A stretch of DNA of 64,000 nt from Mytilus galloprovincialis (taxonomy: Eukaryota; Mollusca; Bivalvia; Mytilida; Mytilidae). Positions within the stretch are counted from its first letter, which is position 1. Each line of letters starts with the position of its first letter. The notes below the pieces were generated by a model. The model did no database searches. It was not told the origin of the DNA and was given only the letters and a program-made list of their open reading frames with translations. A program made the translations under genes and the position numbers. The stretch spans positions 31,062,958 through 31,126,957 of the forward strand of contig NC_134842.1 in the NCBI RefSeq assembly GCF_965363235.1. Direction: 5' to 3'. Below are positions 14,099 through 48,160 of the stretch, in pieces.

Positions 14099-15189
14099 CT
14101 ACAAATGTTCAACGAAATTTGCCGTTTGTACTCCAATATCACAACAATCGTGGTTTCTTGGAAACTCTTTCCAAAAGACCGATGAATTGTCAGACGTGTC
14201 AGAGCTCGAAGTTGAAGCAGACTTGTAGCTACGAGTGCTGTCTGTTAAAGAATCATTCACTTTACGTTTCAAAGAAGATCTGTGTATTTCTTTATGGCTT
14301 CGCAAGGAATTAACTGCGTATAGAATTCCTGGATTTTTGCTGAATTTTTTGTTCATGTCTACTTTTCTGAACTTTTCTGCTTTCCGTCTGCATGCATTCC
14401 CTCTACAGTTATTGTTATGACTAAATTCATCACTGGTGTATTGTTTTGTAACATTCAATATTCTGTTGTCGATCTTCCTTTGAATTCCCTTCTTAACCGG
14501 TTCTTTACCCTGTACATGTTCATATTCGTTTTCTATAACTAGATAAGTAGTGACGTCATAACTGCATCCACGATCATTGAACTTCTGCCAACGAGTTAAA
14601 CGTGAGTTGACAAATTTAAGTACACATAAACAAACAGCAAAAGTAACTGCAACTGTTATTACCAAAATCCATATCCAGTTAGGAATACTTCGATCGATAT
14701 AGTCAGTGTCATATCGAGGTGTCACAGATGAGGTTTGGTCAGTCGAGTTTTGCACTTCATTTAGTCCTTCGATGATGGATACATTTGGTACCATTCTGAA
14801 ATGAAAGTTGAAAAGAAACCATTTTAATTTTTTCCATACTGCAAGTTCATGAAAAAAAACTTTTTTAACTCTCACATATATGCTGTTTTATACTACTACA
14901 TGTAATTCCGTAAAACAATAACATGGATGGAAATGAAATCTTTAATGAAACGAACAAAAAATATTTAAAAGGCACAGTAATCATTGAGAGAGACAAATAA
15001 ATTCATACACCATACATGTACAGAAAAAGGAGATATTGTATGATTATATTAGAAGGGATAAGATATGAGAACATGGACAGAATTGCATTAAGAACTGAAG
15101 ATTCTTTGAAAATTTCATAGTTATCTACTCAGCGGTTTAGGATTTCAAAATACTTACCCTGTTTGTAGATATATGCGTTTTAAGTCCAT
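14099..15189 (-). CDS. Small single-pass membrane protein with RGCSYDVT motif
   Basis: Two exons, 15158-15189 (MDLKRIYLQT, donor GTAAGT) and 14099-14795 (acceptor after a pyrimidine-rich tract ending TTTCAG), join in frame to 242 aa. Residues 12-50 form a short outer segment with Asn-X-Ser/Thr sites (NVS, NST). Residues 51-70 (WIWILVITVAVTFAVCLCVL) are one transmembrane helix. The inner tail starts WQKFNDRGCSYDVTTYLVI, containing a TxYxx(V/I) tyrosine motif, then KKGIQRKIDNR, then a basic and Ser-rich region. The same blocks follow the membrane helix of the protein at 45216-46889, so the two are diverged paralogues. I do not recognise a named family. No cleavable signal peptide is visible, suggesting a type III-like insertion. 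A receptor or adaptor role is inference. Confidence 0.65.
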
Positions 15190-22500: not shown

Positions 22501-25500
22501 GTTTTACAAAATTGTTTAAATGTAAACTTTAAGCTATTAATTGGAAAGTAGAATACTTCTCTTAAATAGATTTGGGTTGTTTTTGACAATACAATGCACA
22601 TATATCGGGTACTAGCATCATTAAGTCATGCTAAATGACTGAAATCCTCGAAATGTTTGCATTTTGGTTAATTTTTAGACGGTTTCCATTTGACATGGAA
22701 GTGGCCGCATTTGTGTTCATTCCTAATATTTAAATGTAAGTTGTATTTGATGATAATACATAACATATATAAAGGTTGAGAATGAACGCGGATGCGGCCA
22801 CTTTCATTTTTGACAAAAAACATATGAAAAGTGACATATTATGGCATATTTGATAGATTTTTCATATTTATGCTTGAATTGGAGCGTTTTTAGTGACTAA
22901 ATCAGTTTTAAGATCTTTCTCATATACTAATTGATTCGACTAAAGTAGACACTTAAGTGTTTAAAAAGTGTCCAAAATCTTTCATCAGAAGAACCTGAAA
23001 TTTGAGGCCAAAATCGGCCCTTACCGGACCTACTCCTTTATCAGACGAATAACATAATTGTAACTGAAACGAATGCTTTGTCCACTAATTATAACTAGAG
23101 GCTCTCAAGAGCCTGTGTCGCTCACCTTGTTCTATCATATGCGCATATTAAACAATGGACACAGATAAATTCATGACAAAATTGTGTTTTGGTGATCATG
23201 ATGTGTTTGTAGATCTTACCTTACTGGACATTCTTCTTGCTACAATTATCATTATCTATAATGAACTTGACCCAGTAATTACAGTGGAAAATATATACTA
23301 AAAATTTACAAAAATTTACAAAAATTTATGAAAATTGTTAAAAAATGACTATAAAGGGCAATAACTCCTTAAGGGGTAAACTGACGATTTTAGTCATGTT
23401 GACTTATTTGTAGATCTTACTTTGCTGAACATATCTGCTGTTTACAGTTTATCTCTATCTATTATAATATTCGAGATAATAACCAAAAACTGGCAAATTT
23501 CCTTAACATTACTAATTCTGGGGCAGCAATCCAACAACAGGTTGTCTGTTTTGCATGAAAATTTCAGGGCAGATAGATCTTGCCCTGATAAACAATTTAT
23601 TCCCGTCAGATTTGCTCTAAATGCTTTGGTTTCAGAGACATAAGCCAAAATCTACATTTCGCCCCTATGTACTATTTTTAGCCATGGAGGCCATTTTGGT
23701 TGGTTGGCAGGGTCACGCCACACATTTTTAAAACTAGATACCCAAATGATGATGGTGGCCAAGTTTGGTTAAATTTTGCTTAGTAGTTTCAGGAGAAGAT
23801 TTTTAAAAAGAATACTAAAATTTAAGAAAAATGGTTAAAATTGACTATAAAGGGCAAAACTCCTTAAGGGGTAAACTGACGATTTTGGTCATGTTGACTT
23901 ATTTGTAGATCTTACTTTACTGAACATTGTTGCTGTTTACAGTTTATCTCTATCTATAATGATAATCAAGATAATAAGCAAAAACTGCAAAATTTCTTTA
24001 AAATTACTAATTCAGGGGCAGCAACCCAACAACGGGTTGTCTGATTTGTCTGAAAATTTCAGGGCAGATAGATCTTGACCTAATAGATTATTTCACCCCC
24101 ATGTCAGATTTGCTCTAAATGCTTTGGTTTTTGAGTTATAAGTCAAAAACTGCATTTTACCCCTATGTTCTATTTTTAGCCATGACGGCCATCTTGGTTG
24201 TTTGGCCGGGTCACCGGACACATTTTTAAAACTAGATACCCCAATGATGATTGTGGCCAAGTTTGGTTTAATTTGGCCTAGTAGTTTCAGAGGAGAAGAT
24301 GTTTGTAAAAGCTAACGACGGACGACGACGACGACGACGACGGACGACGGACGACGGACGCAAAGTGATGGGAAAAGCTCACTTGGCCCTTTGGGCTAGG
24401 TGAGCTAGAAAAGGAATCTAGTCATTAAAGTCTAGTTATTAAAACAATGCAAAGGGCAAGCATTTAATAAAAGTAAAATATATAAAAATAAAGAGACGCT
24501 CCCTTTCAACAACTCTTTGAAATCTCCGTAATTGACCTGTTGGAAGGCAAATTTATCTCACTACCCAATATACCCTCATTTTCCAGTGGCAGTATACATT
24601 TTTCGACCCTCATCCCGGACGACCATATTATATTTACAGGACCGTTACTATTACCTATTGTAATTATTTGCATTTTGTTTTGCCTTGAAACATGCATGAA
24701 ATATTTGCCACTGGACGTTAAGCAATCAACAATAAATCAATCTTTTCATCTGGTCAATAGTTCACTATTAACAAGGTTAATGTTAGAACTTTTTTTAACG
24801 AAACTACTGCACCATTCTTAACAAAAATGTATTCCATTACACCACAATGAGACATTGGGATTATCAACCATTTAAAAAAAAAATCGCATGATACAGTTTG
24901 AGTGTCCAGATTCTATAAACTTGTTAATAGAAATATCAAAGTCTTTGAGTTGTGCTGGTTGTTTCACGACTTTGTTATCCTGTTGGTATTAAGCAGCTAC
25001 TTCTTTCAAATGCATTTCTTTTGAGGATTTCATTTTTCGTATCAATATTCTGAAATGGTATGTTAATTGTGTATCATTTGTTCAAACAGATTTAATCATC
25101 AAAAGTTTAAAAAAGAAAATTGAATCGGATACATTTGATATATTTGACCAATGATACATATCTAAAATATTTTTAAACAGTTAATTTTCATGATGATCTT
25201 TTTAACTACCATTAGTCTCAGAGATGACCTTGAAAGCGTTATTTTGTCGTAGTTCTTATGTATTCTCCTTTTTAACCAACTAAAGATTTTATTTCGGACA
25301 ACCCGTCAGTTGTTCCATTCAAAGAGACATTGCGGATTCATCGGTTCTACAATTTTGGTTTTAAACTTAGCAGATGACGTTTTCCAATATTTTGCGCTTT
25401 TCATCATTTTTGTGACTGATCGTCCATTTCTATCTTCGTATTTCAATAAAAAAAAAAAACTCTCAGAACTAGAGTTGTAGCATTGTTTTCAAACTTGCAT

Positions 25501-28500
25501 TTATTTTGTCAAAAGCTGTGTCTCGTTTTTTTTTTATATCTTGGAGCCCTATATGGCTGGCTTTCTGTTCAAAGTGAGCCAAGGCTCCTGTTGAAGGCCG
25601 GAATTTGACCTTTAATACTTTACTTCTAAAAATTGTGACTCGGATGGAAAGTTGTCTCATTGGCACTCACACCACATCTTCTAATACCTAGATCAAGGTG
25701 ATTACATCATAAAAACAATTTTGATTTTACTTACAAACAAAGAATGATGGCTATTACATTGTACCCGGCGTTCACAAAGAAAACTGTTCCTTTATAAACC
25801 TCTACCGTTGCGCTATATATTGCATTAGCAGTGACCGAACCAGTCATATTCACTATGGCCTCAACTGCAGCCATACTTCCAAATAAGGAACCTGCAAAAT
25901 TGCAATACAAATTGTCATGTCTGCCAATTTCCCTGGCACGTGTAAACACAAATATATATATATATATATATACTAGTGGCTAAAGAGATAATAAACGTTT
26001 TTGGAAACAGTCCTCGGCTTGTCGATGCTTTTAACAAACATTCATTAATAAAAAAATGTTTACATCTCATAATTGAGTGTTTTAATTGTTGTCTAACTTT
26101 CACTGAACTTTTCATTTTCTTATTGATTGATATACCTTTAAACTCAGTTTTACTTAACCATGCGTTTTAGCCTCGATGCATGTTTCAACCTCATCTCAGA
26201 TATCTCAACTAGAAATATACTTCTATTGATGTGGTTTTATCTGAATTTTTGTTATTGTAACTGCCTCATTCAACTATTAAGTACAGCCGGTGTTTTCATC
26301 TTCACATAAAGGAAAACGGAATGGCGCCTAAAAAGAATTTACCGTATTGGTCAGAATGTGTAGTGAGTTGAATGCTTAACCGAGTTCTTAACCGATTGAA
26401 TGAATATTTGTTGCAGAACTACACATACTGCTATAGAAGAATAACGTTACATATATATAGTGACAATAATGACAGAAAACAGACAGCCACATAATGAAGT
26501 CATAACATTCACAGAAATACAAATGTTATATATGCAATCATTAATAATTAATTATCATAGCTTCCATGTCGCATATACGAAAATTAGTAGAAAAAAGTTG
26601 AATAGCCAAACTACAGAACTCCGAAGAAAATTATAAACGGAAAGTCCCTAGTAAGCAATTAACAAAACCAAAAGCTCAAACTCATCAAACGAACGAATTA
26701 TAACTGTCATATTCCTGACTTGGTACAGCCATTTTAGTATGTAGAAAATGGTAGATTGAATAGAAATAAGAAGGAGTGGAATGAGTGCCAATCAGACAAC
26801 TCTCCATTCAAGTCACAAATTATAAAAGTAAACCATTATAGGTCACAGTACTTTCTTCAACACAAACCTGGTTTTATATCTACCTAAACCTCTCACTTGT
26901 ATGACAGTCGCATAAAATTCCACTAATATTGACAATGATGAGTGAATACAAAGTTACCTTGCAGATCTGGTGGTGTCAGTTTAGACATTGTACCTCTCAT
27001 CATCGGCATTGCTAAGGTACTACCCACACCAATCACAGGTACTGCAATTTAAATCATAATGAAATCTAATTTAAAAAATAAACAAAACATCTCACTGAAA
27101 CATTATTTAGACACAAACATGTTCACATCGTATGCCCCAAAACCTTTTGTATTGCTGTTATATTTAAACTTTCTGGTTTTAGCGTACTAAAGTCTATTGA
27201 AAACAAAATAACATTATATGAATCAAAATATTTACGCAGATTTAGTAATGTGACAAAATAATGTGGTTAAAAGTAAGAAACAACCGATGAAGAATGAAGA
27301 AAGTAGAATGATTAGGAATATGTGGTATTGTTCTCATTACATATGAGGGGGAGGACAGGGGTAAGGGAGACAGGGAGAAAGGGGGTAGATGAAAGGAGAA
27401 AGGGGTGGGAGAAAGGAGAAAGGGGATAGGAGAAAGGAGAAAGGGGGTAGGAGAAAGGAGAGGAAGGCTGGGAGAAAGGCGAAAAAGTTGGAGAAAGGAG
27501 AAAAAGTTTGAGAAAGGAGATTTTTTTTTAATTTATCTCAAAAGGAGATGTTTTATTCTAATGGGAGAAAGGAACACGGGGGTAGGAGAAAGGAGAAGAT
27601 GGGTGGGAGAAGGGAGAAGGGTACCCCCTGTCCTCCCTCTTACATATGGTACTGCTATATAAATATCAAAGCTATAACCCTGTAACATAACTTGTACAAA
27701 CCTAAATACAACATGAAGCTAGTATTGGCAAACCCTTGCCAAATGAGCGACAATGCAGAAGTAATACTACCGACAAGAGCAATAACTTGGTCCGTGGTGC
27801 AATAATGAAATAATTTAATCATTAGGATACAGGCCACACATCCAACTAGAGTCTCTATGGTTCCAAAATTTCCGACTTTTACATTACTCCAGCAGAATGG
27901 CGAACCTAGCTCGTATAACATGGAAATGTTAACACTGCCGAGTGAGAAATCTGTTAGAATAAAAATACTAATTGCAAGGACAAAAAGCCATTTGTTCGCC
28001 ATAGAAGATACCTGTGACGTGTAAAAATCTGTCATCTTTTTCATATTATGTATAATTGGAGTGGCGGGTCGTCTCATTGATAGCGGAAGCGTTTCCGGTA
28101 GGAGTAATAAAACGACAAGAATTCCTAAAATAGTAACGATCTCCGATAATAACACGGGAATAAGAAATCCTTTTGTATATTTTATAAGGTATCCAGATAA
28201 TAGTGACGATAATAATGATCCTACTTCAAAACTAGTCTCCATAACTCCTATAGCAAAAGATCTTTGTTTCCCCCCTTTAGTCAGATCAGATATATAACAA
28301 AGAGTCATAGCAAGTGATGCAATCCAGAGACCACCAAAACCTTCAACTATGAAAAAGGGAATAAACCAGTTCATAGTTAGTTCATAGTATATTCCAATAG
28401 AGCATAGTAAGCTTTTAATCATCGTTCCTAGAAGAGGTGGTAGGAAAAATATTTTTCTTCCGTACACATCACTATACGACACGATATTAATGCTTACGAA

Positions 28501-28851
28501 TATGGACGGAATATTTGATGCAAGTGTGCAATATATTGACCATCGTGATTGTATTTCTTGAACTCTTAGTTGTTGCTTGAAGGCATTTGTACTTGTATTT
28601 AACGCACACCCTGTTCCATTACCGTTGTCCTCGTCCATTCCATTCGGATATTGTTCTTTCGTTATAGCTAAGTAAGCATATTCGTTGAGCACATACATAT
28701 TTAGAATATACGAAAACATATGTATCATTAACACGGCACCGACAATTACAAACGACCATCTTCCACTATTTGTTTTTCCTATGTGACTGCTTCGATCAGA
28801 GACGTTTGGAATAAGTGGTTCGTCGTCGGACATCGTCGATTTGTGATTCAT
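19595..28851 (-). CDS. SLC46-like major facilitator transporter (PCFT/SLC46 family)
   Basis: Four exons give 492 aa: 27702-28851, 26958-27041, 25735-25891 and 19595-19682. All junctions have GT/AG ends and matching phase. The first exon opens with an acidic DDEPLIP tail, TM1 (WSFVIVGAVLMIHMFSYIL), a glycosylation-prone loop (NGTGC, NTST), then YSDVYGRKIFFLPPLLG, which is the MFS motif A form after TM2. Further helices follow, with LPETLPLSMRRP before the central loop. Later exons supply PVIGVGSTLAMPMMRG and a final helix NVIAIILCLILKYI. The family moves folates or related solutes with protons across plasma or lysosomal membranes; the substrate here is unknown. The first three exons are strong. 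The last exon, across a roughly 6-kb repeat-filled intron, rests on phase, polypyrimidine tract and helix continuity. A full-length LINE sits 178 bp upstream of the ATG. Confidence 0.82.
19683..20330. other. Intron 3 of the transporter, first part, nothing recognised
   Basis: No repeat or exon is named here apart from the acceptor region of the last exon. Confidence 0.5.
20330..20570 (+). repeat. R1 family fragments, two opposed pieces
   Basis: It contains 'aaccgtacggccttcaacaa' and 'ctataaaggccccgacatg', then inverted 'gctcattgttgatggctgtg' and 'gtgctgtctcatttgcaatt'. It looks like two R1-type fragments facing each other within the last intron of the transporter. Confidence 0.55.
20571..21900. 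other. Intron sequence, low-copy or unrecognised
   Basis: A short inverted pair 'cccatcataaacgg' (21122) and 'ccgtttatgggtaatg' (21206) brackets a GC-richer patch (21139-21160). No coding exon is supported. Confidence 0.45.
21905..22020 (-). repeat. R1 family fragment
   Basis: 'aaggctccgtgttgaaggcc' and 'gtctcattggcactcatacc' are R1 read on the opposite strand. Confidence 0.75.
22255..22388 (+). repeat. 66-bp tandem duplication
   Basis: 'aatgcttatgatgtttttgc' followed by 'aagaaggttcttaaactgca' occurs at 22255 and again at 22321 with only a few differences, a head-to-tail duplication. Confidence 0.9.
22455..23040. mobile_element. MITE with GTAGGTCC-type inverted ends and internal palindrome
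   Basis: The left end is 'gtgtaggtccagtaaggccc'. The right end complements it as 'gagtaggtccggtaagggcc'. A second inverted pair lies inside: 'gaagtggccgcatttgtgtt' (22699) against 'gaacgcggatgcggccactt' (22782). It has no coding capacity and is a non-autonomous DNA element. Confidence 0.7.
23096..24412. repeat. Bivalve repeat with two internal ~490-bp units and GACGAC-rich end
   Basis: It starts 'gaggctctcaagagcctgtg' and ends 'ggccctttgggctaggtgag', an edge pair I recall from many bivalve repeats. Two long units (about 23340-23815 and 23835-24305) share 'gggcaataactccttaagg'-like starts, 'gcagcaatccaacaac' and 'ggccaagtttggtt'. 'gacgacgacgacgacgac' lies at 24315-24360. The open frame inside is not a gene. 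Confidence 0.75.
24590..24755 (+). repeat. Third member of the 3.3/12.4 kb repeat family
   Basis: 'atatttacaggaccg' and 'aaatatttgccactggacgt' followed by 'taagcaatcaacaataaatc' correspond to 3310-3410 and 12470-12540. This copy is closest to the form I recall from Mytilus. Confidence 0.6.
24756..25555. other. Intron sequence, nothing recognised
   Basis: No exon with good splice sites and phase was found here. A 12-base A run lies at 25449. Confidence 0.45.
25560..25690 (-). repeat. R1 family fragment next to transporter exon 3
   Basis: 'gccaaggctcctgttgaagg' and 'tgtctcattggcactcacac' are R1 on the opposite strand. It ends about 45 bases short of exon 3. Confidence 0.75.
26600..26960 (+). 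repeat. R3 family repeat interrupted by an R1 fragment
   Basis: R3 words ('cagaactccgaagaaaatta', 'cctgacttggtacagcc', 'cctctcacttgtatgacagt') match 49860-50080 and, inverted, 55560-55880. At 26765-26870 an R1 piece ('gagtgccaatcagacaac') is embedded between its two parts, showing nested insertion. The block abuts transporter exon 2 (26958-27041). Confidence 0.7.
27345..27640 (+). repeat. Polypurine GGAGAAAGG minisatellite
   Basis: Roughly 290 bases are nearly all purine on the plus strand, built of 'ggagaaaggggt' and 'aggagaaagg' units with one pyrimidine-containing interruption near 27515-27560. It lies in transporter intron 1, ending about 60 bases from the exon 1 donor, where the pre-mRNA would be pyrimidine-rich. 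The open frame across it is an artefact of the repeat. Confidence 0.85.
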
Positions 28852-29214
28852 CACTTAAATGAAATATTAATTTTAAATTTAAAATCACATTTACGTATGA
28901 TGATGTATATTTCATACTATGTTTTTGTTATCTTGTTTATGATAGAAAATATCTAATCATTACCTATTTTGTATCTACAAAGGTTATATATATAATTAGG
29001 CCATTGACTATCTTGTCATTGGAATGTTTTTTTTTTTTTTTTAACTACATAATAATTTTATTCATCAAATATTGCTTGTTACATAAACCATCAAGATTCC
29101 AAGCTTCTCTTGACGTACCCTGTTACAATCCACTGACTACCCAGGGAATAGTCAGCTGATTAAATTAATTGACATACATTTTTTACAAATCTCTATATTA
29201 ACAATTTAAAAATA

Positions 29215-32200
29215 TTATTCATTGACTATGTGTCTTTTTATTGAAAGTAACATTGGACTAATTGCCTTATGTCCATTAAGATTGGTATCTACTCTCTTTG
29301 TGTATTCGTTAATAAACATTTTGAATACGTCTATGTTTTTTGTTTTCTGTTCAGATACATAGTACGACTTGTATATTGAAAAACTAATAATTGTAATCAA
29401 AAAATTTATCGGGTAATACTTGCTGTCTGTAATTTTGTATCCAAATATCATGTGTTGTAATTTTATTGAAAAATGTAAATTACTCTTTTTTAAAAGTTCG
29501 TTAAATTGTTGCCAAAATCTTGTTAAATAAGAGCAATTGAAAAAATAATGAGCATAGTCTTCTTCTAAGTTACAAAAATTGCAAAGACTGTTATTAGCTA
29601 TTTTCCATTGTAATAAATGCTTTTTGGTTGGTACAATAAACTGTAGTAGTTTCCATCTGTATATTTTTAATTTATTTTCAGTTAAGTATTTGAAAATAAA
29701 GTTATATAATGAATTCATATTTGATTCTTCTTGCAATGGTAAAATATTGAGCCATCTGTTTATCCCTATTGACGTTTCTTTTTTACTATTCACTAGAGAG
29801 TCATATAACATTTTATTTGAAAAAAATGTAGTCTCAAAATAACGATCTTTCCATATGATCTTATTTCTCTGGATATTTACTTTACTTTGGACAGAATTTT
29901 CTTGTTTAACTATGTCAATCCAATTTTGTGGAATGGATTGTTTCAATTTATGAAATTCAGCAATCCAGTTTACTTTACACTTTAATTTGTTCAAAATATA
30001 ATTTTCTGATAGTGACATAGTGTCATCTAGAATGTCATTCAAGTATATTATATCACTTTTAATCCAGTTTTCAAATATAATTGGTTTCTTATGAAATGCA
30101 ATAAATTTATTTCCCCAAATTGTTTGTTTTCTTATACCAGCATATGTCACTGCTTGTTTTGTTTGCCCACCCCCAGTCAAAATCCAGGACTTTATTACTT
30201 CTCTATAAAATTCTGGAACACGTTTAAAATATTCTAAATGTTTTATATCATTTAAATTCATATTGAATATAACTAAAATATTATTAGACACTTTTAAATA
30301 TTTAAAAGGTATTAGCTTCCAGTTGGAAAATTTACCATTAACTAGTCTATATACCCATGATGCTTTAAGCGCTATAAAATAACTTTTAAAATCGACCATT
30401 TGTAGGCCTCCTTTTTCATAAGGAAGTGTTATCAGGTTTCTTTTTACTTTGTCTGGCTTCCCATCCCAAATATATTTAAAGCTTCTTGTTTCTATTTCTT
30501 TAAGATAGTTTTCAGGTGTTAAGCAGACACTTCCCAAAAACGTAAATAACGGCAAAATTAATGCTTTAATAATTAGTATTTTCCCTAAAATTGAAAGATT
30601 CCTTTTTTCCCATGTCTTGAATAATTTCATCATTTTCTCTATTTTACAATTCCAATTTAATTTTTCGCATTCATCTTTATCATGTCCAAAAAACACCCCT
30701 AATGCTTTAATGGGTTTATCTCCCCAATTAATCCCCGCAATTTTATCTTTACATGATTTCAATTTCCCGATCCACAATCCTTCTGTTTTATTTCTATTTA
30801 CCAATAGTCCTGAAAATGAGCCAAAAATTTCGATTATATTCATTGCAGATATTACATCGTTTTTATCTTTACAAAATAATGTTGTGTCATCTGCTAGTTG
30901 TGAAATTTTAATGCTGTGACTTTTCCCATCTAACTTAATAGTGATTCCTTTTACTTCGTTGCTGTTCCTTAACTTAAGAGCCATAATTTCAACAGCAAAA
31001 ACAAACAATAATGCTGATAAAGGACAGCCTTGTCGGATTCCCCGTGAATTTTTGAAAATTTCTGATACCCACCCATTGTTCATAACACATGTTTGAACAT
31101 CTGTATACATAGTTTTAACCCACTTAATGAATGATTCATTAAACCCAAAATGTTTTAAAGTTCCAAGCATAAAATCCCATTCTAAAGAATCAAATGCTTT
31201 TGTAAAATCCACAAAAACAAGTGCTCCCTCTATTTTGTATGTTTCTGAGTAGTCTATTACATCTTGGATTTGCCTCAGATTAAACCCAATGAATCTATTT
31301 TTAACATAACCGGTTTGATCCTCATTTATAATTTTTGGAAGTACCCTTTTTAAACGTTGCGCAAGAACATATGACAAAATTTTAAAATCTATATTAAGAA
31401 GTGATATTGGACGATAGTTTTCTAAAAGTAATGGATCCCCCTTTTTAAATATCAAAGTTAATATACTAGTACGTTGTGAATATGAAAGACTGTTTCTGTC
31501 GTATCCAGTATTTAATACATTTACCAATAGTGATTTAAGTTTATTCCAAAAACATCTATAAAATTCTACCGTAAGTCCATCAAGACCTGGAGATTTATTT
31601 AATTTCATTTTAAAGATACCATATGTGCATTCCTCTACTGTAATCTTCCCATCGCATATTAGTTTGTCATTTTCATCAACGGTACATTCTAATTTTGTAT
31701 CGGTGATATATTTTTCTGTTAAATCTTTATTTAAACCTTTTTTGTTATACAAGTTTTCATAATAATCTTTTATTTTGTTTAAAAGTTTCTCTTGATCCGA
31801 AATTATTTCCCCATTATCTCCCATTAGCTTACTTATAGATTTTTTAACTTGTCTTTTTTTTTCTAACCCAAGGAAGTAAGAATTATTTTTTTCACCAAAC
31901 TCTACCCATTTTTCCCTAGATCTCACTTGAGCTCCCTTCGCTTTTTCTTCATATATCTTATTTAGCTCTTCTTCAATACCATTAATTTCTTTTTCTATCT
32001 TATCGTCATCTATATTTATCTCATCTCTTAATTTTATTATTTCTTCTAATTCTTTTTCCAGAGTATATCTCCGTCCCTTGGTTAACTTTGCTTTATTTTT
32101 ACAATAGTTTGTGGTTACTTCCCTTACCGCGATTTTAAACCCATCCCATAATAGTCTACAATCTAATGATTCCTTTTCAAAATTATATTTATCAATCAAA

Positions 32201-33015
32201 GTATTAATCAGTTCTTGGTAATCTTTATCTTGCAAAATTGAATTGTTAATTTTCCAATACCCATTGCCCCTTTCTGATACCCCTGGCTTAAATTTTAGAA
32301 ATACGCTTTGGTGGTCAGTAGACCGAATAACAGCTGGTTTGATTTTACAAAATTCTACCAGTGGTAAAAAATCTGACCCAATAAAAATCATGTCAATTCG
32401 ACTAGCTTGTGACTTATCTCTTCTTCTCCACGTGAATTGCTGTTTATTTTCATGTAAGTTTCTCCATATATCTGTTAGTTTGTTAGATTTAATCAAGTTT
32501 TTTAAACCATGTACAGGTTGAGTAAATTTACATGGACGTATAGATTTTCTATCAATTGGTTTTATTGTCTCGTTAAAATCGCCCCCAAGTATTGCTATTC
32601 CTAGACCGTGTTCCTTTAAATTATCGCTGACTTTTTTAAAGAAAGAATTTCGTGATGTTTTACAGTTAGGTGCATATACATTAATAAATGTAAAAATTGA
32701 GTTATTCATTTGCACATTGATAAGCACCAATCTTCCGTCCCTATCAATAAATTTATTAATTAGTTCGTAGCGTAATGATTTTTTAATTAATATAGCTACA
32801 CCCCTACTAGCCGTAGTACCATGACTACAAAACGCATCATATGCTGTTTTATTATTTATATCCCTTTCGATAATTTCATCAAGATGTGTTTCTTGCAAAA
32901 AACTTATGACACTTTTTTGAGCGGTAACCCATTCTATTACTCTATTTCTTTTTTCTCTTGAATTAATTCCGTTTACGTTGAGACTACATAGATTAACTGT
33001 ATTTGTAAATGTCAT
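29215..33015 (-). CDS. LINE ORF2: endonuclease and reverse transcriptase, 1266 aa
   Basis: The N-terminal apurinic-type endonuclease shows SLNVNGIN (11-18), FLQETHLD (39-46), FINVYAPN, GGDFNE, SRIDMIFI and a RSTDHQSV block. The reverse transcriptase shows KSPGLDGLTVEFYR, RPISLLNIDFKI, FVDFTKAFDSLEW, RGIRQGCPLSALLF and QLADDTTLFC, where LADD replaces the common YADD, as in many Tx1-type elements. Near the C-terminus CNFCNLEEDYAHYFFNC is the C-x2-C-x7-H-x4-C motif typical of L1-group ORF2. The protein nicks target DNA and copies the element RNA into the nick. The frame is complete from ATG to stop. Its low GC matches the window. Confidence 0.95.
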   Translation of the reverse strand: MTFTNTVNLCSLNVNGINSREKRNRVIEWVTAQKSVISFLQETHLDEIIERDINNKTAYDAFCSHGTTASRGVAILIKKSLRYELINKFIDRDGRLVLINVQMNNSIFTFINVYAPNCKTSRNSFFKKVSDNLKEHGLGIAILGGDFNETIKPIDRKSIRPCKFTQPVHGLKNLIKSNKLTDIWRNLHENKQQFTWRRRDKSQASRIDMIFIGSDFLPLVEFCKIKPAVIRSTDHQSVFLKFKPGVSERGNGYWKINNSILQDKDYQELINTLIDKYNFEKESLDCRLLWDGFKIAVREVTTNYCKNKAKLTKGRRYTLEKELEEIIKLRDEINIDDDKIEKEINGIEEELNKIYEEKAKGAQVRSREKWVEFGEKNNSYFLGLEKKRQVKKSISKLMGDNGEIISDQEKLLNKIKDYYENLYNKKGLNKDLTEKYITDTKLECTVDENDKLICDGKITVEECTYGIFKMKLNKSPGLDGLTVEFYRCFWNKLKSLLVNVLNTGYDRNSLSYSQRTSILTLIFKKGDPLLLENYRPISLLNIDFKILSYVLAQRLKRVLPKIINEDQTGYVKNRFIGFNLRQIQDVIDYSETYKIEGALVFVDFTKAFDSLEWDFMLGTLKHFGFNESFIKWVKTMYTDVQTCVMNNGWVSEIFKNSRGIRQGCPLSALLFVFAVEIMALKLRNSNEVKGITIKLDGKSHSIKISQLADDTTLFCKDKNDVISAMNIIEIFGSFSGLLVNRNKTEGLWIGKLKSCKDKIAGINWGDKPIKALGVFFGHDKDECEKLNWNCKIEKMMKLFKTWEKRNLSILGKILIIKALILPLFTFLGSVCLTPENYLKEIETRSFKYIWDGKPDKVKRNLITLPYEKGGLQMVDFKSYFIALKASWVYRLVNGKFSNWKLIPFKYLKVSNNILVIFNMNLNDIKHLEYFKRVPEFYREVIKSWILTGGGQTKQAVTYAGIRKQTIWGNKFIAFHKKPIIFENWIKSDIIYLNDILDDTMSLSENYILNKLKCKVNWIAEFHKLKQSIPQNWIDIVKQENSVQSKVNIQRNKIIWKDRYFETTFFSNKMLYDSLVNSKKETSIGINRWLNILPLQEESNMNSLYNFIFKYLTENKLKIYRWKLLQFIVPTKKHLLQWKIANNSLCNFCNLEEDYAHYFFNCSYLTRFWQQFNELLKKSNLHFSIKLQHMIFGYKITDSKYYPINFLITIISFSIYKSYYVSEQKTKNIDVFKMFINEYTKRVDTNLNGHKAISPMLLSIKRHIVNE

Positions 33016-33769
33016 AGTTAATAGTATATAAATTATGCTTAAGTTTCAACATACTAGTATACAAATTTACAACAGTTACAATTTTATAACACTCAGAAAT
33101 ATTTATTACAGTTACATCAATCGAAACACAATTAAAATACATATTCATTATTTCAGTCAATAATGCATAGTTGTTACACATATCTATCATGTCTATACAA
33201 CCTACAAAATAATTACCTTTCACCTGGTGTGACCTTAAGCCAATTGTTCCGCTATTAAACCTCGTGAAAGTAATGTGTATTTTAAACGCATTGTAAATAT
33301 TTGGATAGTTTGATAGTGTAGGAATTACCGCATGGTAAACGTAATTAAATAATTTAGAATTCGATGTCTGTGTTTGAAAGGAAAATACTATCATGTAAAT
33401 ATGTATCAAATTAACAGCATGAACTTGACACGATTGAAAGGTGGACAATTTAATGCCGTTCATGTTTTTACGATTATAAAGTGTAGAACCAGAAACACAG
33501 CATATAACATGTTTCGAAATATTCTCAATCGTAGGATTTACGCTACTTGCAATGTTTTTCAATTCAATACAATGGAAATGGTTCGGTGCTTTTTTGTATA
33601 CATGTGCACTTGATATATATTTTGTGCATTTTTTATCGGATTGAAAAGTAAATTGTTGTGGACAAATATAAGTGCATACTGCCGGACTATATACGTACTC
33701 TACAGGTAAGTAGTTATTTTTCTCTATCGTATTACTTGTATATATTTTATTGATTTGTAGGTATCTCAT
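32993..33769 (-). CDS. Open frame between LINE ORF1 and ORF2, 258 codons
   Basis: The frame runs 777 bases without a stop in AT-rich sequence and overlaps the start of ORF2 by 23 bases. The product is rich in Tyr, Asn, Ile and Thr and shows no motif I know. A run this long is unlikely by chance at this base composition, but the protein does not look like a known domain, so it may be a relic, a spacer with biased composition or a lineage-specific ORF. Confidence 0.3.
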   Translation of the reverse strand: MRYLQINKIYTSNTIEKNNYLPVEYVYSPAVCTYICPQQFTFQSDKKCTKYISSAHVYKKAPNHFHCIELKNIASSVNPTIENISKHVICCVSGSTLYNRKNMNGIKLSTFQSCQVHAVNLIHIYMIVFSFQTQTSNSKLFNYVYHAVIPTLSNYPNIYNAFKIHITFTRFNSGTIGLRSHQVKGNYFVGCIDMIDMCNNYALLTEIMNMYFNCVSIDVTVINISECYKIVTVVNLYTSMLKLKHNLYTINYDIYKYS

Positions 33770-33783
33770 CAGTGATGTAAGGT

Positions 33784-34209
33784 TCAGAATGAAAAGTTTC
33801 TTGTTTTGTTCACCGTAAACCGTGTTACTATAAATAGCATAGGTAAAAACCTAATTCCTATGTTTATAATGTAAACATTGAACAGCTGATGTATGATTAC
33901 ATGTATCATAATAGTTAAACAACATTTACACACTACATTTGACATTTTCACATTTTGGTTACATGTTTCACATTTTAGTACAACTTCACATTTGAAAAAT
34001 ACTTCTCCATAGCAACTTTTAACTCTTTTAAAGAGCTTTAAACTTTTACATATTTTTATTATTTTTTTAAATGATATCAAATTAAGATAAAATTTCAGCA
34101 AAACAAAAATAAAACTGAAACTGATTAAGCAAAAGTTACAATTTATGTTTTGTCTATTTGATTGGTAAACTCTTGAAATGAGCTGTAATTTATTTGTCAT
34201 TTTTGTCAT
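33784..34209 (-). CDS. Second open frame between LINE ORF1 and ORF2, 141 codons
   Basis: It begins 76 bases after the ORF1 stop and ends 14 bases before the start of the 258-codon frame. The product has two hydrophobic stretches and a Cys-rich centre (KCETC, VCKCC). Part of it comes from short direct repeats of 'ttcacatttt', which may keep the frame open by chance. Confidence 0.22.
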   Translation of the reverse strand: MTKMTNKLQLISRVYQSNRQNINCNFCLISFSFIFVLLKFYLNLISFKKIIKICKSLKLFKRVKSCYGEVFFKCEVVLKCETCNQNVKMSNVVCKCCLTIMIHVIIHQLFNVYIINIGIRFLPMLFIVTRFTVNKTRNFSF

Positions 34210-34285
34210 TTTTTTTTTAGTTAATTTGTATGATAAAACTATTGTACAATCATTGTCATTGTTTTGTGATTTCTATACATTTGAA

Positions 34286-35632
34286 TTATCCTTTACTCTT
34301 TTTAGTTCCAATATTTCCACTAGTTTTGTCATGCAAAGCTTCTGTAGGTGTTGGAGGTGATCTGTCACTTGCATTTACTATTCTCCTATGTGGTGTTTTA
34401 ACAAATCTATCAATTGGAGGTTGTGCTTTGTCTACATTGTCACTATTTCCATCTTTATTTCTTTTTGGTGCAACTGTCTTGCTAGTAGATGCTTTGATGT
34501 TATTGGGTTTTTTTCCAGATTGTTTTTTAGCAGGTGGTATTGTAGGAACTTCTAATTCAGTGTGATCTACATTTTCATCCTGATCTGTGTTGTCAACAGA
34601 TGCTATATTGTCATTCTCAGGTTGCTGTCTAGATTCATCATGGTCATGTTCATCAACAGTCTGAAAATTTTGTGGACAGTCTAACATTTTGTGACCACTT
34701 TCCTTACATGTTTTGCACACCCAGTCATTGGGACATTGGAATAACATATGGCCAGGTTGAAGGCATTTGTGACATGTTCTCTCTTTTCTTTCACTATTGT
34801 TGTTATTTTGGAATTCTGGTTGACCAGCATGGAAAATTCTCCCAAAATATCTTCCAATAGGCAGATTTCTGGGGATTGGTTTGTCTAGAGTCTTGCTAAT
34901 AACAAGCCTATCTCCTGTTTCACAAGCTGTCATTCTACCATCTACTCTTAGATACTCTCGAAATAAACCTTGTATTTCACAGCCTTGAAGGGTTAGGGCT
35001 CGGTGTATTTGCCCATCATCCGCAGAAAGGGGGATGTTTTTCACCTTTATGCGTATTGTGTCTTTTTGTAGCGTTGATGGGTTGTGAGGGTTTTGTGAGT
35101 GAAGGGGTACTTGCCTGCCACGTAAGTTTAACCCCTGTACCAACAAAGACAGTCTGTCACCCTCATTGTCCATATAAATTCGCCACATCTCTCTGATTCT
35201 CTGTATTCCCTTTATACACTGTTTAGGGACTTTGGCACTAATAGATTTGAAGATTTCAACATTAGTTAGCCATTGCGCCCGAGGAGGTTTTTCCGAGCCA
35301 TGCACATCTTGATCTTTTAGAAAAATTGGCTTAACAAGATCACTAGGGTCACTTGATTCCTTTGGTTTACTATATTGACTGATGTTTTCAATGTTAGTTT
35401 GTTCGGATAGTGTGTTAGCTTGACTTAAGTGTGTATCTGAAATTACTTCGGCGTAGGTCGCCATTTTTTCTGTGTTTACATTTTGATGAGCTGTCGATTC
35501 TTTGTTATCAATAAACGGTTCTATACCTTGTAGACCTTCTAAAAGCCTCAGAAAGCGATCCTGGGTCATTTTCTTACACAATGCTTCCACTTCTGCATTC
35601 ATTTTAGGTTTCGAAACAACGATTTTTATCAC
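34286..35632 (-). CDS. LINE ORF1: nucleic-acid binding protein with two zinc knuckles, 448 aa
   Basis: A low-complexity N-terminus precedes a central domain (APRAQWLTNV-like opening, DTIRIKVKNIPLSADDGQIH, RYFGRIFHAGQ) typical of ORF1 of Tx1/I-type LINEs. Two CCHC knuckles follow, CHKCLQPGHMLFQC and CKTCKESGHKMLDC, and then a basic tail. It would bind the element RNA. The first ATG is at 35632; Met11 at 35602 is an equally possible start. Confidence 0.92.
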   Translation of the reverse strand: MIKIVVSKPKMNAEVEALCKKMTQDRFLRLLEGLQGIEPFIDNKESTAHQNVNTEKMATYAEVISDTHLSQANTLSEQTNIENISQYSKPKESSDPSDLVKPIFLKDQDVHGSEKPPRAQWLTNVEIFKSISAKVPKQCIKGIQRIREMWRIYMDNEGDRLSLLVQGLNLRGRQVPLHSQNPHNPSTLQKDTIRIKVKNIPLSADDGQIHRALTLQGCEIQGLFREYLRVDGRMTACETGDRLVISKTLDKPIPRNLPIGRYFGRIFHAGQPEFQNNNNSERKERTCHKCLQPGHMLFQCPNDWVCKTCKESGHKMLDCPQNFQTVDEHDHDESRQQPENDNIASVDNTDQDENVDHTELEVPTIPPAKKQSGKKPNNIKASTSKTVAPKRNKDGNSDNVDKAQPPIDRFVKTPHRRIVNASDRSPPTPTEALHDKTSGNIGTKKSKG

Positions 35633-35835
35633 TTTTTGACGGAGTATTGTGCGATACGTCTTGACATATCAGGGGACAGCACTCTTTTTTGGAATGTTAA
35701 CTTTTATGGTTTAGGGTAATTAATTAAAAAAATAAATAAATTGAGAAATATATAATTAGAATGGGAATGACAATAACAAGGAGTTTATCACAAAAAACAA
35801 CAATATAGCTTTATATATATATATATATATATAAA

Positions 35836-44620: not shown

Positions 44621-44664
44621 CCACAACATTACTAAATTAAAAACTTAACTTTGATCTTGAAGTT

Positions 44665-44830
44665 TGATTTTGCTTATTATTACTATTATTATTCATCACG
44701 GTTGGGCGGTCACAAATTTCTTTTAAATCTTCAGTATCATTAAGTATGTATACATCTCTCACGTTTGGATTTAACAGGTACATATGATTTTTTTTTCGAT
44801 ATGATTTTTGTTGGAATTTTCTTGTCGTAT
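44665..44830 (-). pseudogene. Duplicated fragment of the adjacent membrane-protein gene
   Basis: The minus strand encodes LNPNVRDVYILNDTEDLKEI followed by CDRPTVMNNN, nearly identical to residues LNPNVGDVYILNDIKDLNEI and CDHPTVMNNN in the gene at 45216-46889. The DNA match covers about 160 bases (45855-46000 is the source region). The copy lies 390 bases beyond the parent stop, separated by an R2 repeat, and ends in an AAT-rich microsatellite. It could be a dead duplicate, or less likely an alternative 3' exon. Confidence 0.7.
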
Positions 44831-44919
44831 AATAAAATAATTTGTTTGTTCTTACATTAGCAAACATGACAGGTTTCACATGTGGAGCACGATCTGCTTT
44901 CCCCTGCGGAGCTCCGCAG

Positions 44920-45065
44920 ATCAACCCCAACTTTTGGCTGTGTTCCGATTGCTCAGTCTAAAGTTTTCTATGTTGTGTTTTGTGTATTTTTGTTTGTCTG
45001 TTCGTTTAATCCTTTGTTAGCGATAGCGTTGGCAGATTGTTTTCGACTTATGATCGAGTTTTAAT
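44920..45065 (+). repeat. R2 family fragment
   Basis: 'ccgattgctcagtctaaagt' and 'tttctatgttgtgttttgtg' mark R2. It separates the duplicated fragment from the parent gene. Confidence 0.7.
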
Positions 45066-45215: not shown

Positions 45216-46889
45216 TTATTTGCATGAACATGAATTATTTTGGAATGTAGATGAAAGTGTATGATTCGTAATCTTTGAGCATTCATCACAAATATAGTTA
45301 TTTGTCTGAACGGAACTTTGTTTATGCATAACAAATTCGTCATTGCGATTACAATCTTCTTTTAATATATGTCCTGATGAAGATTGTTGCTTTTGTAAAT
45401 CGTCATTGGTATGAAGTTCGGAAGACGTATGCGAACAATTTTCACAAATAACACGTGAGTGCCTATTGTCGTTCTTTAAACATATTAAACAATGCACATG
45501 TTCACGATCACTGAGTTTTGCAATAGAGTTTTTACATTTGGAAGACAATTCTGCATTTGAGGTATATATTTGTTCGTTTCGGTGGTTATTATTAACTTTA
45601 ATACTGCAATCACTTGAATTTCCTTCATTTTCTTTGCATGTTTTGCACTTTTGTCCATTTTTAAATGGAATGTTTTCATTATATTTATCAAGGTCTTTGG
45701 AAAGCGTCAAACTTGGTATTACGTTATCATTATCCTTCACCTTTGCTCGAGATTCTAATGTTTTATGTGATTCTTTCACAGATATGTTGCTATTTTGATT
45801 TATTTCTTCTTCGTTAGATACACAATTAGCATGTATCATAGCCGTTGTATATAACTTATTATTATTCATCACGGTTGGGTGGTCACAAATTTCATTTAAA
45901 TCTTTAATATCATTAAGTATGTATACGTCTCCCACGTTTGGATTTAAAGACGTACATTCAATAGGACTTTTATTTGAACTTTCTTCTCGTGAAACAGCTG
46001 ATCCGAATGTCAATTTACTGACACTTTTTTTCACTTGAATTGAAACATTCCGTCTGTTTGTTTTATTAATTCCTGAACCTGCTGAAAACAATCGGCTGTC
46101 CGACACTGAACGACGAGGGGATCGTTTCGGTTGTCTGTTTTCATACGACATTGATGCACTGAAATCTGAAATATCCCTCAAATGAAAACTAGGCTGTTTA
46201 AGAGAAGGTTTCAACCTTTTTGAGTTCATTGTATTTTTTAAGCGTACATAATTATCAATTACTGGTGCAATATAAAATCGGCCATTTTTATGAACAGTTT
46301 CTTTTAAACCCTCCGGTTTTTGTATGTCTGGTGTCGGACTCCTCCGCGCATTCATTGCTGTGTTATATTTCACTAACGAAGCATACGAGGTCACCGTATC
46401 ATACATTTTATTATCGATTCGGTTTTGTAAACCTTTCTTCGAAGTTACAGTATCATATACCAGATGCGAGGTCGATAAATTCAATTCGTTAAAATCTTGA
46501 TCTTCCTGCGTCACTATAACATACGATGTGACGTCATAACTACATCCTCTTTCGTGGAATTTAGAGTCTTCTCTCATCCACTTGCAAGCGCGAAGACAAA
46601 TAATCCACAAGAAAGCAATTATAGCTAGTACCGGTATAATTGTTATACTTTGAAAAGTTTTTCCTTTTGATGCTTGGTTAGCAAGCCATTCGTCAAGGTT
46701 ATAATAAACTGGTTTTGAACTATTTCGTGAATCGATAACACCTGTTTTCGTTGTATTTGCAAGTCTGTTTAATATAACTGAAGGTTTTGTAACATGAATC
46801 AAATAAAATATAATCCATATCTGAATGAGGGATAAAACTAATACTTTCATTTGATGTTCAACGAAAACCGAACAAGCTAACGTCTTCAC
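45216..46889 (-). CDS. Membrane protein with RGCSYDVT motif and CxxC-rich tail, 557 codons
   Basis: One long open frame. Met14 (46850) opens a good signal peptide (MKVLVLSLIQIWIIFYLIHV) and is the likelier start. A short outer segment with NTT and NSS sites leads to a membrane helix at 81-99 (SITIIPVLAIIAFLWIICL). Just inside are SKFHERGCSYDVTSYVIV (109-126) and KKGLQNRIDNK, shared with the protein at 14099-15189. YDTVTS occurs twice nearby. TSYVIV fits the ITSM form TxYxx(V/I), and HLVYDTV contains an ITIM-like LxYxxV. A long polar tail carries LNPNVGDVYILND and ends with several CxxC pairs (CKTC, CLIC, CENC, CDEC). I do not recognise a named family. A receptor that recruits SH2 proteins is a possible role, by inference only. 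Confidence 0.7.
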   Translation of the reverse strand: MKTLACSVFVEHQMKVLVLSLIQIWIIFYLIHVTKPSVILNRLANTTKTGVIDSRNSSKPVYYNLDEWLANQASKGKTFQSITIIPVLAIIAFLWIICLRACKWMREDSKFHERGCSYDVTSYVIVTQEDQDFNELNLSTSHLVYDTVTSKKGLQNRIDNKMYDTVTSYASLVKYNTAMNARRSPTPDIQKPEGLKETVHKNGRFYIAPVIDNYVRLKNTMNSKRLKPSLKQPSFHLRDISDFSASMSYENRQPKRSPRRSVSDSRLFSAGSGINKTNRRNVSIQVKKSVSKLTFGSAVSREESSNKSPIECTSLNPNVGDVYILNDIKDLNEICDHPTVMNNNKLYTTAMIHANCVSNEEEINQNSNISVKESHKTLESRAKVKDNDNVIPSLTLSKDLDKYNENIPFKNGQKCKTCKENEGNSSDCSIKVNNNHRNEQIYTSNAELSSKCKNSIAKLSDREHVHCLICLKNDNRHSRVICENCSHTSSELHTNDDLQKQQSSSGHILKEDCNRNDEFVMHKQSSVQTNNYICDECSKITNHTLSSTFQNNSCSCK

Positions 46890-48009: not shown

Positions 48010-48160
48010 AAAAAGGAGACGAGCGATAACAAATAAATTGACAACGACAAGGCTAAAAAAGAAAAATACAAACAGAAAAACAACAGTACACAAAATAAAA
48101 CATAGAACACTAAACACCGAGCAACATGAACCCAACCAAAACTAGGGGTGACGTTTTTGA
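48010..48160 (-). repeat. R2 family fragment, inverted
   Basis: 'aaattgacaacgacaaggct', 'acagtacacaaaataaaaca' and 'gagcaacatgaacccaacca' are R2 on the minus strand. Confidence 0.7.

Follow-up and report, generated by a model that had tools for sequence, protein, structure and literature searches.

The question raised by this locus of Mytilus galloprovincialis is whether two open frames, lying about 30 kb apart on the same strand and both encoding a predicted membrane protein with a short tyrosine-containing block behind the helix, are related to each other, and whether the residues they share may serve as a docking site in signalling. The window referred to below is the whole stretch of 64,000 nucleotides that was analysed, and positions without a chromosome name are counted within it. 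The smaller of the two genes comprises the following features.

14099..14794, minus strand: coding region for the small protein (231 aa from ATG to stop); the open frame reaches 14887
15158..15189, minus strand: 5' exon proposed for the small gene by the first-pass annotation, 32 bases without a hydrophobic signal; optional and unproven, splice dinucleotides and phase fit
14618..14674, minus strand: predicted transmembrane helix, residues 41-59; hydropathy 2.89 over 19 residues, AlphaFold2 helix 39-74
14534..14584, minus strand: juxtamembrane block KFNDRGCSYDVTTYLVI, residues 71-87, with TxYxxI at Y84; 11 of 17 residues identical to the paralogue
14432..14494, minus strand: second conserved block KKGIQRKIDN...QYTS, residues 101-121; 0/2000 shuffles
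14114..14131, minus strand: C-terminal VQTANF, possible shared LC8-like short motif; shuffles 24/400 and 30/400

The frame of 262 codons described in the first-pass annotation, together with the residues quoted from it, was present at 14099-14887 on the minus strand, the 231 residues being counted from the ATG at 14794. The longest open frame in 30 mononucleotide shuffles of the window reached 170 aa. Among the six frames that of the gene obtained the best codon-usage score in both cases; since the margin was small and no fewer than 12 of 186 background frames outscored either gene, this score carries little weight. The proposed splice from 15158 to 14795 is possible with respect to its donor GT, its pyrimidine-rich stretch with acceptor AG and its compatible phases, but it is not required because the ATG at 14794 carries an A at -3 and a G at +4 by direct reading. 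Hydropathy revealed no signal peptide in the small protein, neither from its own ATG nor from the proposed exon. The alignment of the pair places the first residues of the small protein directly behind the signal-like part in the large one, in an ectodomain whose similarity is not above chance, and a separate signal-peptide exon for the small gene is conceivable. The search for such an exon upstream yielded one candidate under strict criteria (23126-23199), which was unconvincing.

The larger gene, with an open frame at 45216-46889, comprises the following features.

45216..46850, minus strand: coding sequence for the 544 aa of the paralogue, starting with the ATG at 46850; apparently one coding exon
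46785..46850, minus strand: hydrophobic, signal-peptide-like N-terminus, residues 1-22; hydropathy above 1.6 in the windows from residues 1-4, model helix 2-20
46593..46649, minus strand: predicted transmembrane helix, residues 68-86; hydropathy 2.74, model helix 67-101
46512..46562, minus strand: juxtamembrane block KFHERGCSYDVTSYVIV with TSYVIV, residues 97-113; alignment and 0/2000 shuffles
46374..46463, minus strand: LVYDTV (Y132), block KKGLQNRIDN...SYAS (residues 138-158) and TSYASL (Y156); motif scan, shuffles and block conservation
45294..45311, minus strand: VQTNNY near the C-terminus, possible counterpart of VQTANF; same shuffles

The C-terminal part of the large protein (45216-45710) contains several CxxC pairs (HCLIC, ICENC, ICDEC, KCKTC), which are possibly metal-binding; zinc-finger families matched this region in Pfam at sub-threshold level only, and a further sub-threshold match of the C-terminal part was Y1_Tnp (E 0.11). 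A 91-base piece of the coding sequence (the NPNVGDVYILNDIKDLNEICDHPTVMNNN region, 45857-45947) recurs 3' of the gene at 44684-44774 with 93% identity, within an open frame at 44637-44957. This copy may represent a partial tandem duplication or an alternative 3' exon. Between the two genes lie a retroelement (29215-35668), with a frame of 1276 codons resembling an endonuclease/reverse transcriptase and a CCHC gag-like frame upstream, both named from their residues, and a frame on the same strand as the pair that matches the major facilitator family (27655-28854; Pfam MFS_1, E 1.5e-11).

Based on reciprocal protein searches of the 1.38 Gb genome, in which the small and the large protein find each other with E values of 3.5e-4 and 3.7e-4, the two genes are homologous. 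Both products have one membrane helix, followed 10-11 residues on by KFxxRGCSYDVTxY and later by KKGxQxxIDN...YxS. The local alignment scores of the juxtamembrane region and of the KKG-block region were not reached in any of 2000 shuffles each, in contrast to those of the ectodomain (179/2000) and of the remaining tail (596/2000), which bears out the earlier statement that the rest of the two proteins has diverged. The arrangement is less regular than it had been described. The first block does lie near the helix but does not follow at once: the gap measures 11 residues in the small protein (block from 71 after helix 41-59) and 10 in the large one (from 97 after 68-86). The second block, said to stand at the same distance from the helix in both, starts at residue 101 in the one and 138 in the other, 41 and 51 residues after the helix, respectively.

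The synonymous codons at 24 residues common to both genes were identical in 10 cases, compared with 11.3 expected from codon usage; this comparison covered both blocks as well as the C-terminal VQT, which is doubtful, and the usage was derived from three local frames, two of which are the pair itself. The codons of the first block considered separately were identical in 7 of 11 cases against 4.9 expected (P 0.14), which is no significant excess. Synonymous identity is therefore at chance level, and by this measure the duplication is old and the remaining likeness of the two short stretches has been kept by constraint at the protein level.

Within the conserved block both genes contain the palindrome TGACGTCA (14551-14558 and 46529-46536), which is the CRE octamer. 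It matches six times in the window, where 0.5 matches are expected, and none of 100 shuffles had as many. Its presence in both blocks may reflect shared ancestry together with codon choice, or a site acting at the DNA level.

The likeness of the two C-termini (VQTANF and VQTNNY), with scores reached in 24/400 and 30/400 shuffles, is not clearly beyond chance. According to PMC3078936, ligands of LC8/DYNLL follow a loose motif with D or S at -4, K at -3, T, V or I at -1, Q at 0, T or V at +1 and D or E at +2. Compared by eye with this motif (PMC3078936), DIGVQTA of the small protein fits at -4, -1, 0 and +1 but not at -3 or +2, and QSSVQTN of the large protein fits at -1, 0 and +1 only. Dynein light chain domains gave 14 matches in the genome.

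A dispersed repeat of about 460 bases in the best-matching copies read (loci L001-L008) contains GGTTGTAGTTACGACGT or a one-base variant of it, so that it can be read as GCSYDV. The block might accordingly have been derived from a repeat or transposon carrying GCSYDV in many copies. The 17-base pattern of the block has 249 matches in the genome, two of which are the genes; most of the others, among the matches listed, are one DNA sequence, and all eight copies that were read are members of a single dispersed repeat. Furthermore, two of these eight copies have RG before GCSYDV (HERGCSYDV in L003, and L006), diverged pieces of the repeat flank the large gene on both sides (44845-45053 and 48031-48151), and the comparison of the large gene with L003, which had been selected because it looked alike, gave a score that only 5/200 shuffles reached. 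However, GCSYDV is built into the copies because the pattern used for fetching them demands it, and all eight continue after DV with R instead of T. The other three of the four gene-repeat comparisons were ordinary (22/200, 187/200 and 81/200 shuffles), and where L001 and L003 align best with the large gene, the alignments stop within the pattern, none being seen to reach the second block. Taking these points together, we consider an origin of the block from the repeat very improbable, and the GCSYDV reading is probably a coincidence.

The first-pass annotation had spoken of a family. Two homologous members do exist, but the searches of this genome gave these two only, and the family is therefore one gene pair. 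No third member was detected by genome searches with both full proteins and with the 45-residue double block, by two degenerate DNA patterns, or by scanning the 264 kb in and about the window for the residues; the genome searches were run exon by exon with only the top candidates scored, and a very diverged member could be missed in this way. The strongest further match (C5:31107639, E 1.2e-7), on the contig C5 that also holds the window, corresponds to the partial copy next to the large gene. A match at C1:71.8 Mb (E 0.137) sits within a gag-like frame, named by eye, and those on C13 (E 1.02), C2 (E 7.91) and C8 (E 2.02) are short and contain stop codons. One of the patterns gave three matches, against one for its control; two are the genes, and the third has stops near its frame on either side. 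The second pattern gave 12 matches, compared with 11 for the reversed control, and ten of these 12 fall outside the window. None of these ten has RG before the cysteine, and in nine a stop occurs within the 274 bases read; the single match without a stop (L052) resembles by eye the copies L050 and L053, which have stops. A pattern match was obtained for 15 stretches of the viral collection and 22 of the prokaryotic one, none of them a relative by tblastn. Judged by these searches, the two genes are an orphan pair in this genome.

No Pfam family scored above its cut-off in either protein, with LST1 and zinc-finger families appearing below threshold, and PDB gave no match below E 0.98; the earlier view that no named family carries the block agrees with this lack of a significant match. 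An Ig-type, lectin or other recognition domain above the Pfam cut-off was likewise found in neither protein. The string RGCSYDVT did not occur in the literature searched, nor did any title or abstract start in the literature on tyrosine-motif and adaptor signalling in bivalves and molluscs name the pair.

With respect to topology, the helix is preceded by 40 residues in the small protein and by 67 in the large one, the hydrophobic start included, and this part contains in each case two N-glycosylation sequons and no cysteine. An outside position of the N-terminus is favoured because these sequons precede the helix in each protein. Both products are probably single-pass proteins that expose a tiny ectodomain and keep a longer tail, which is probably disordered, on the inner side. 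The AlphaFold2 model of the small protein is confident in the membrane helix only (pLDDT 91-92 over residues 41-60), and that of the large protein is moderately confident in its two hydrophobic stretches (block means 75-84), the mean pLDDT being 45.0 and 35.8, respectively. Because one and two sequences underlie these models, their low pLDDT values count as weak evidence for disorder. Both proteins have cysteines close to where the helix ends on the inner side and also within the block.

The conserved tyrosine had been reported to sit in TxYxx(V/I), and a motif scan found this form in both proteins. The ITSM reading derived from it stands in part: the large tail carries three motifs, but the small tail is near chance and the longest identical run precedes the tyrosine. 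Strict ITSM forms occurred in 3.4% of the shuffled small tails and 9.1% of the shuffled large tails. PMC11460946 gives (V|L|I|S|T)xYxx(I|L|V) as the intracellular pattern of ITIM/ITSM receptors, and a shuffle test in which 41 of 51 known receptors lie below 5% and 10 of 51 at 5 to about 25%, the cut-off being about 25%. By this pattern, with the intracellular side taken from the predicted topology, the small tail has one motif and the large tail three (PMC11460946). The count of the small tail was reached in 0.2698 of 10,000 shuffles, narrowly outside the cut-off of about 0.25, and that of the large tail in 0.0522, within it (PMC11460946). The three motifs of the large tail, TSYVIV (Y110), LVYDTV (Y132) and TSYASL (Y156), are spaced by 22 and 24 residues. 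Among known ITIM/ITSMs 99 of 101 have a pLDDT below 80 and 64 of 101 below 50, according to PMC11460946; all four mussel motifs lie in stretches below 50, compared with the criterion of below 80 given there, in models made from one and two sequences.

The run RGCSYDVT, eight contiguous residues and the longest identical one, lies upstream of the ITSM tyrosine, and the motif positions -1, +1, +2 and +3 differ conservatively between the two proteins. Because this run precedes the motif tyrosine, the block is not explained by an ITSM on its own. The link of the blocks to immune-receptor motifs is weakly supported.

The anatomy of the pair, with a tiny ectodomain, one helix and a longer tail whose conserved blocks lie near the membrane, leads us to read both products as adaptor-like, membrane-anchored proteins, and the two kept stretches just inside the membrane are probably docking sites for signalling proteins. 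Our leading interpretation, held tentatively, is docking through phosphotyrosine. Provided that the genes are expressed and oriented as predicted, the two short blocks, about 10 to 70 residues from the membrane, would form a docking site in the tail. Y84 and perhaps Y79 and Y119 of the small protein, and Y110, Y132 and Y156 of the large one, would be phosphorylated and would recruit SH2-domain proteins, so that both proteins would serve as membrane-anchored docking platforms as the vertebrate transmembrane adaptors do, conceivably with a role in immune cells. Inhibitory receptors of the ITIM/ITSM kind are characterised by recruiting SH2 proteins of the SHP-1/SHP-2 type once phosphorylated (PMC11460946). 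SH2 domains are encoded in the same genome by at least 54 matches, all above the family cut-off, which are not a gene count because they are exon pieces, some with stops.

We regard it as less probable, and rather doubtful, that RGCSYDVT and KKGxQxxIDN form a docking site or a membrane-proximal structural element for one specific partner independently of phosphorylation, with the ITSM match being incidental and the conserved cysteine perhaps lipidated. The eight contiguous identical residues before the tyrosine, the fairly frequent occurrence of ITSM-type matches by chance and the cysteines at the inner helix end and in the block of both proteins agree with such an element. However, both tyrosines of the first block and that of the second are among the identical residues, and the large protein bears three motifs. 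Unlikelier than either would be endocytic sorting, in which YLVI and YVIV are recognised by clathrin adaptors as YxxPhi trafficking signals; the proteins would then be sorting receptors or cargo, and phosphorylation would not be needed. YxxPhi also fits both block tyrosines and occurs five times in the large tail, and signals of this kind are commonly found in short cytoplasmic segments close to the membrane. Yet the counts are near chance (two in the small protein, mean 1.2, P 0.35; five in the large one, mean 3.0, P 0.15), and sorting would leave the RGCSYDVT run unexplained.

Returning to phosphotyrosine docking, such a site would make adaptor-style signalling of a bivalve accessible from sequence without any homology in receptor domains. 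The constrained residues of the orphan pair are precisely known, which makes the reading testable with two peptides, a candidate peptide sequence being KFNDRGCSYDVTTYLVIENE. More speculative, and in our estimate improbable to a slightly greater degree than sorting, is the broader proposal that RGCSYDVTxYxxV and KKGxQxxIDN...YxS constitute an undescribed molluscan bipartite juxtamembrane tyrosine switch in mussel cell signalling, which would have arisen independently as an equivalent of the vertebrate ITIM/ITSM transmembrane adaptors.

Among known systems, the ITSM/ITIM immune receptors such as PD-1 and the SLAM family resemble the pair in having TxYxx(V/I) in a predicted cytoplasmic tail, three motifs of this type being present in the large mussel protein. 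They differ from it in that the pair is devoid of an Ig or other recognition domain above the Pfam cut-off and that the small protein has one motif, near chance. Closer in form are the vertebrate transmembrane adaptors LST1, SIT1 and LAT, in which, to our knowledge, the RGCSYDVT block has no counterpart. LST1 is described in PMC8111073 as having a very short ectodomain, one helix, cysteines near the inner membrane face and ITIM-type tyrosines in its tail, and in each of these respects the mussel pair is alike. The same source assigns a dimerising cysteine outside to LST1, whereas the mussel ectodomains lack cysteine (PMC8111073). The block region of the small protein matches LST1 (Pfam PF05083) with 12.8 bits (E 0.14) against a gathering cut-off of 22.3, which shows no sequence relationship. 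LST1 is the closest named relative in form, but on present evidence not in sequence. The dispensable, taxonomically restricted genes of Mytilus, as portrayed in PMC7653742, are similarly orphan and of simple coding structure; the pair differs from them in being an old duplication and not a recent expansion (PMC7653742). Taken as a whole, the pair consists of unnamed orphan genes of a familiar kind rather than of a new kind of system.
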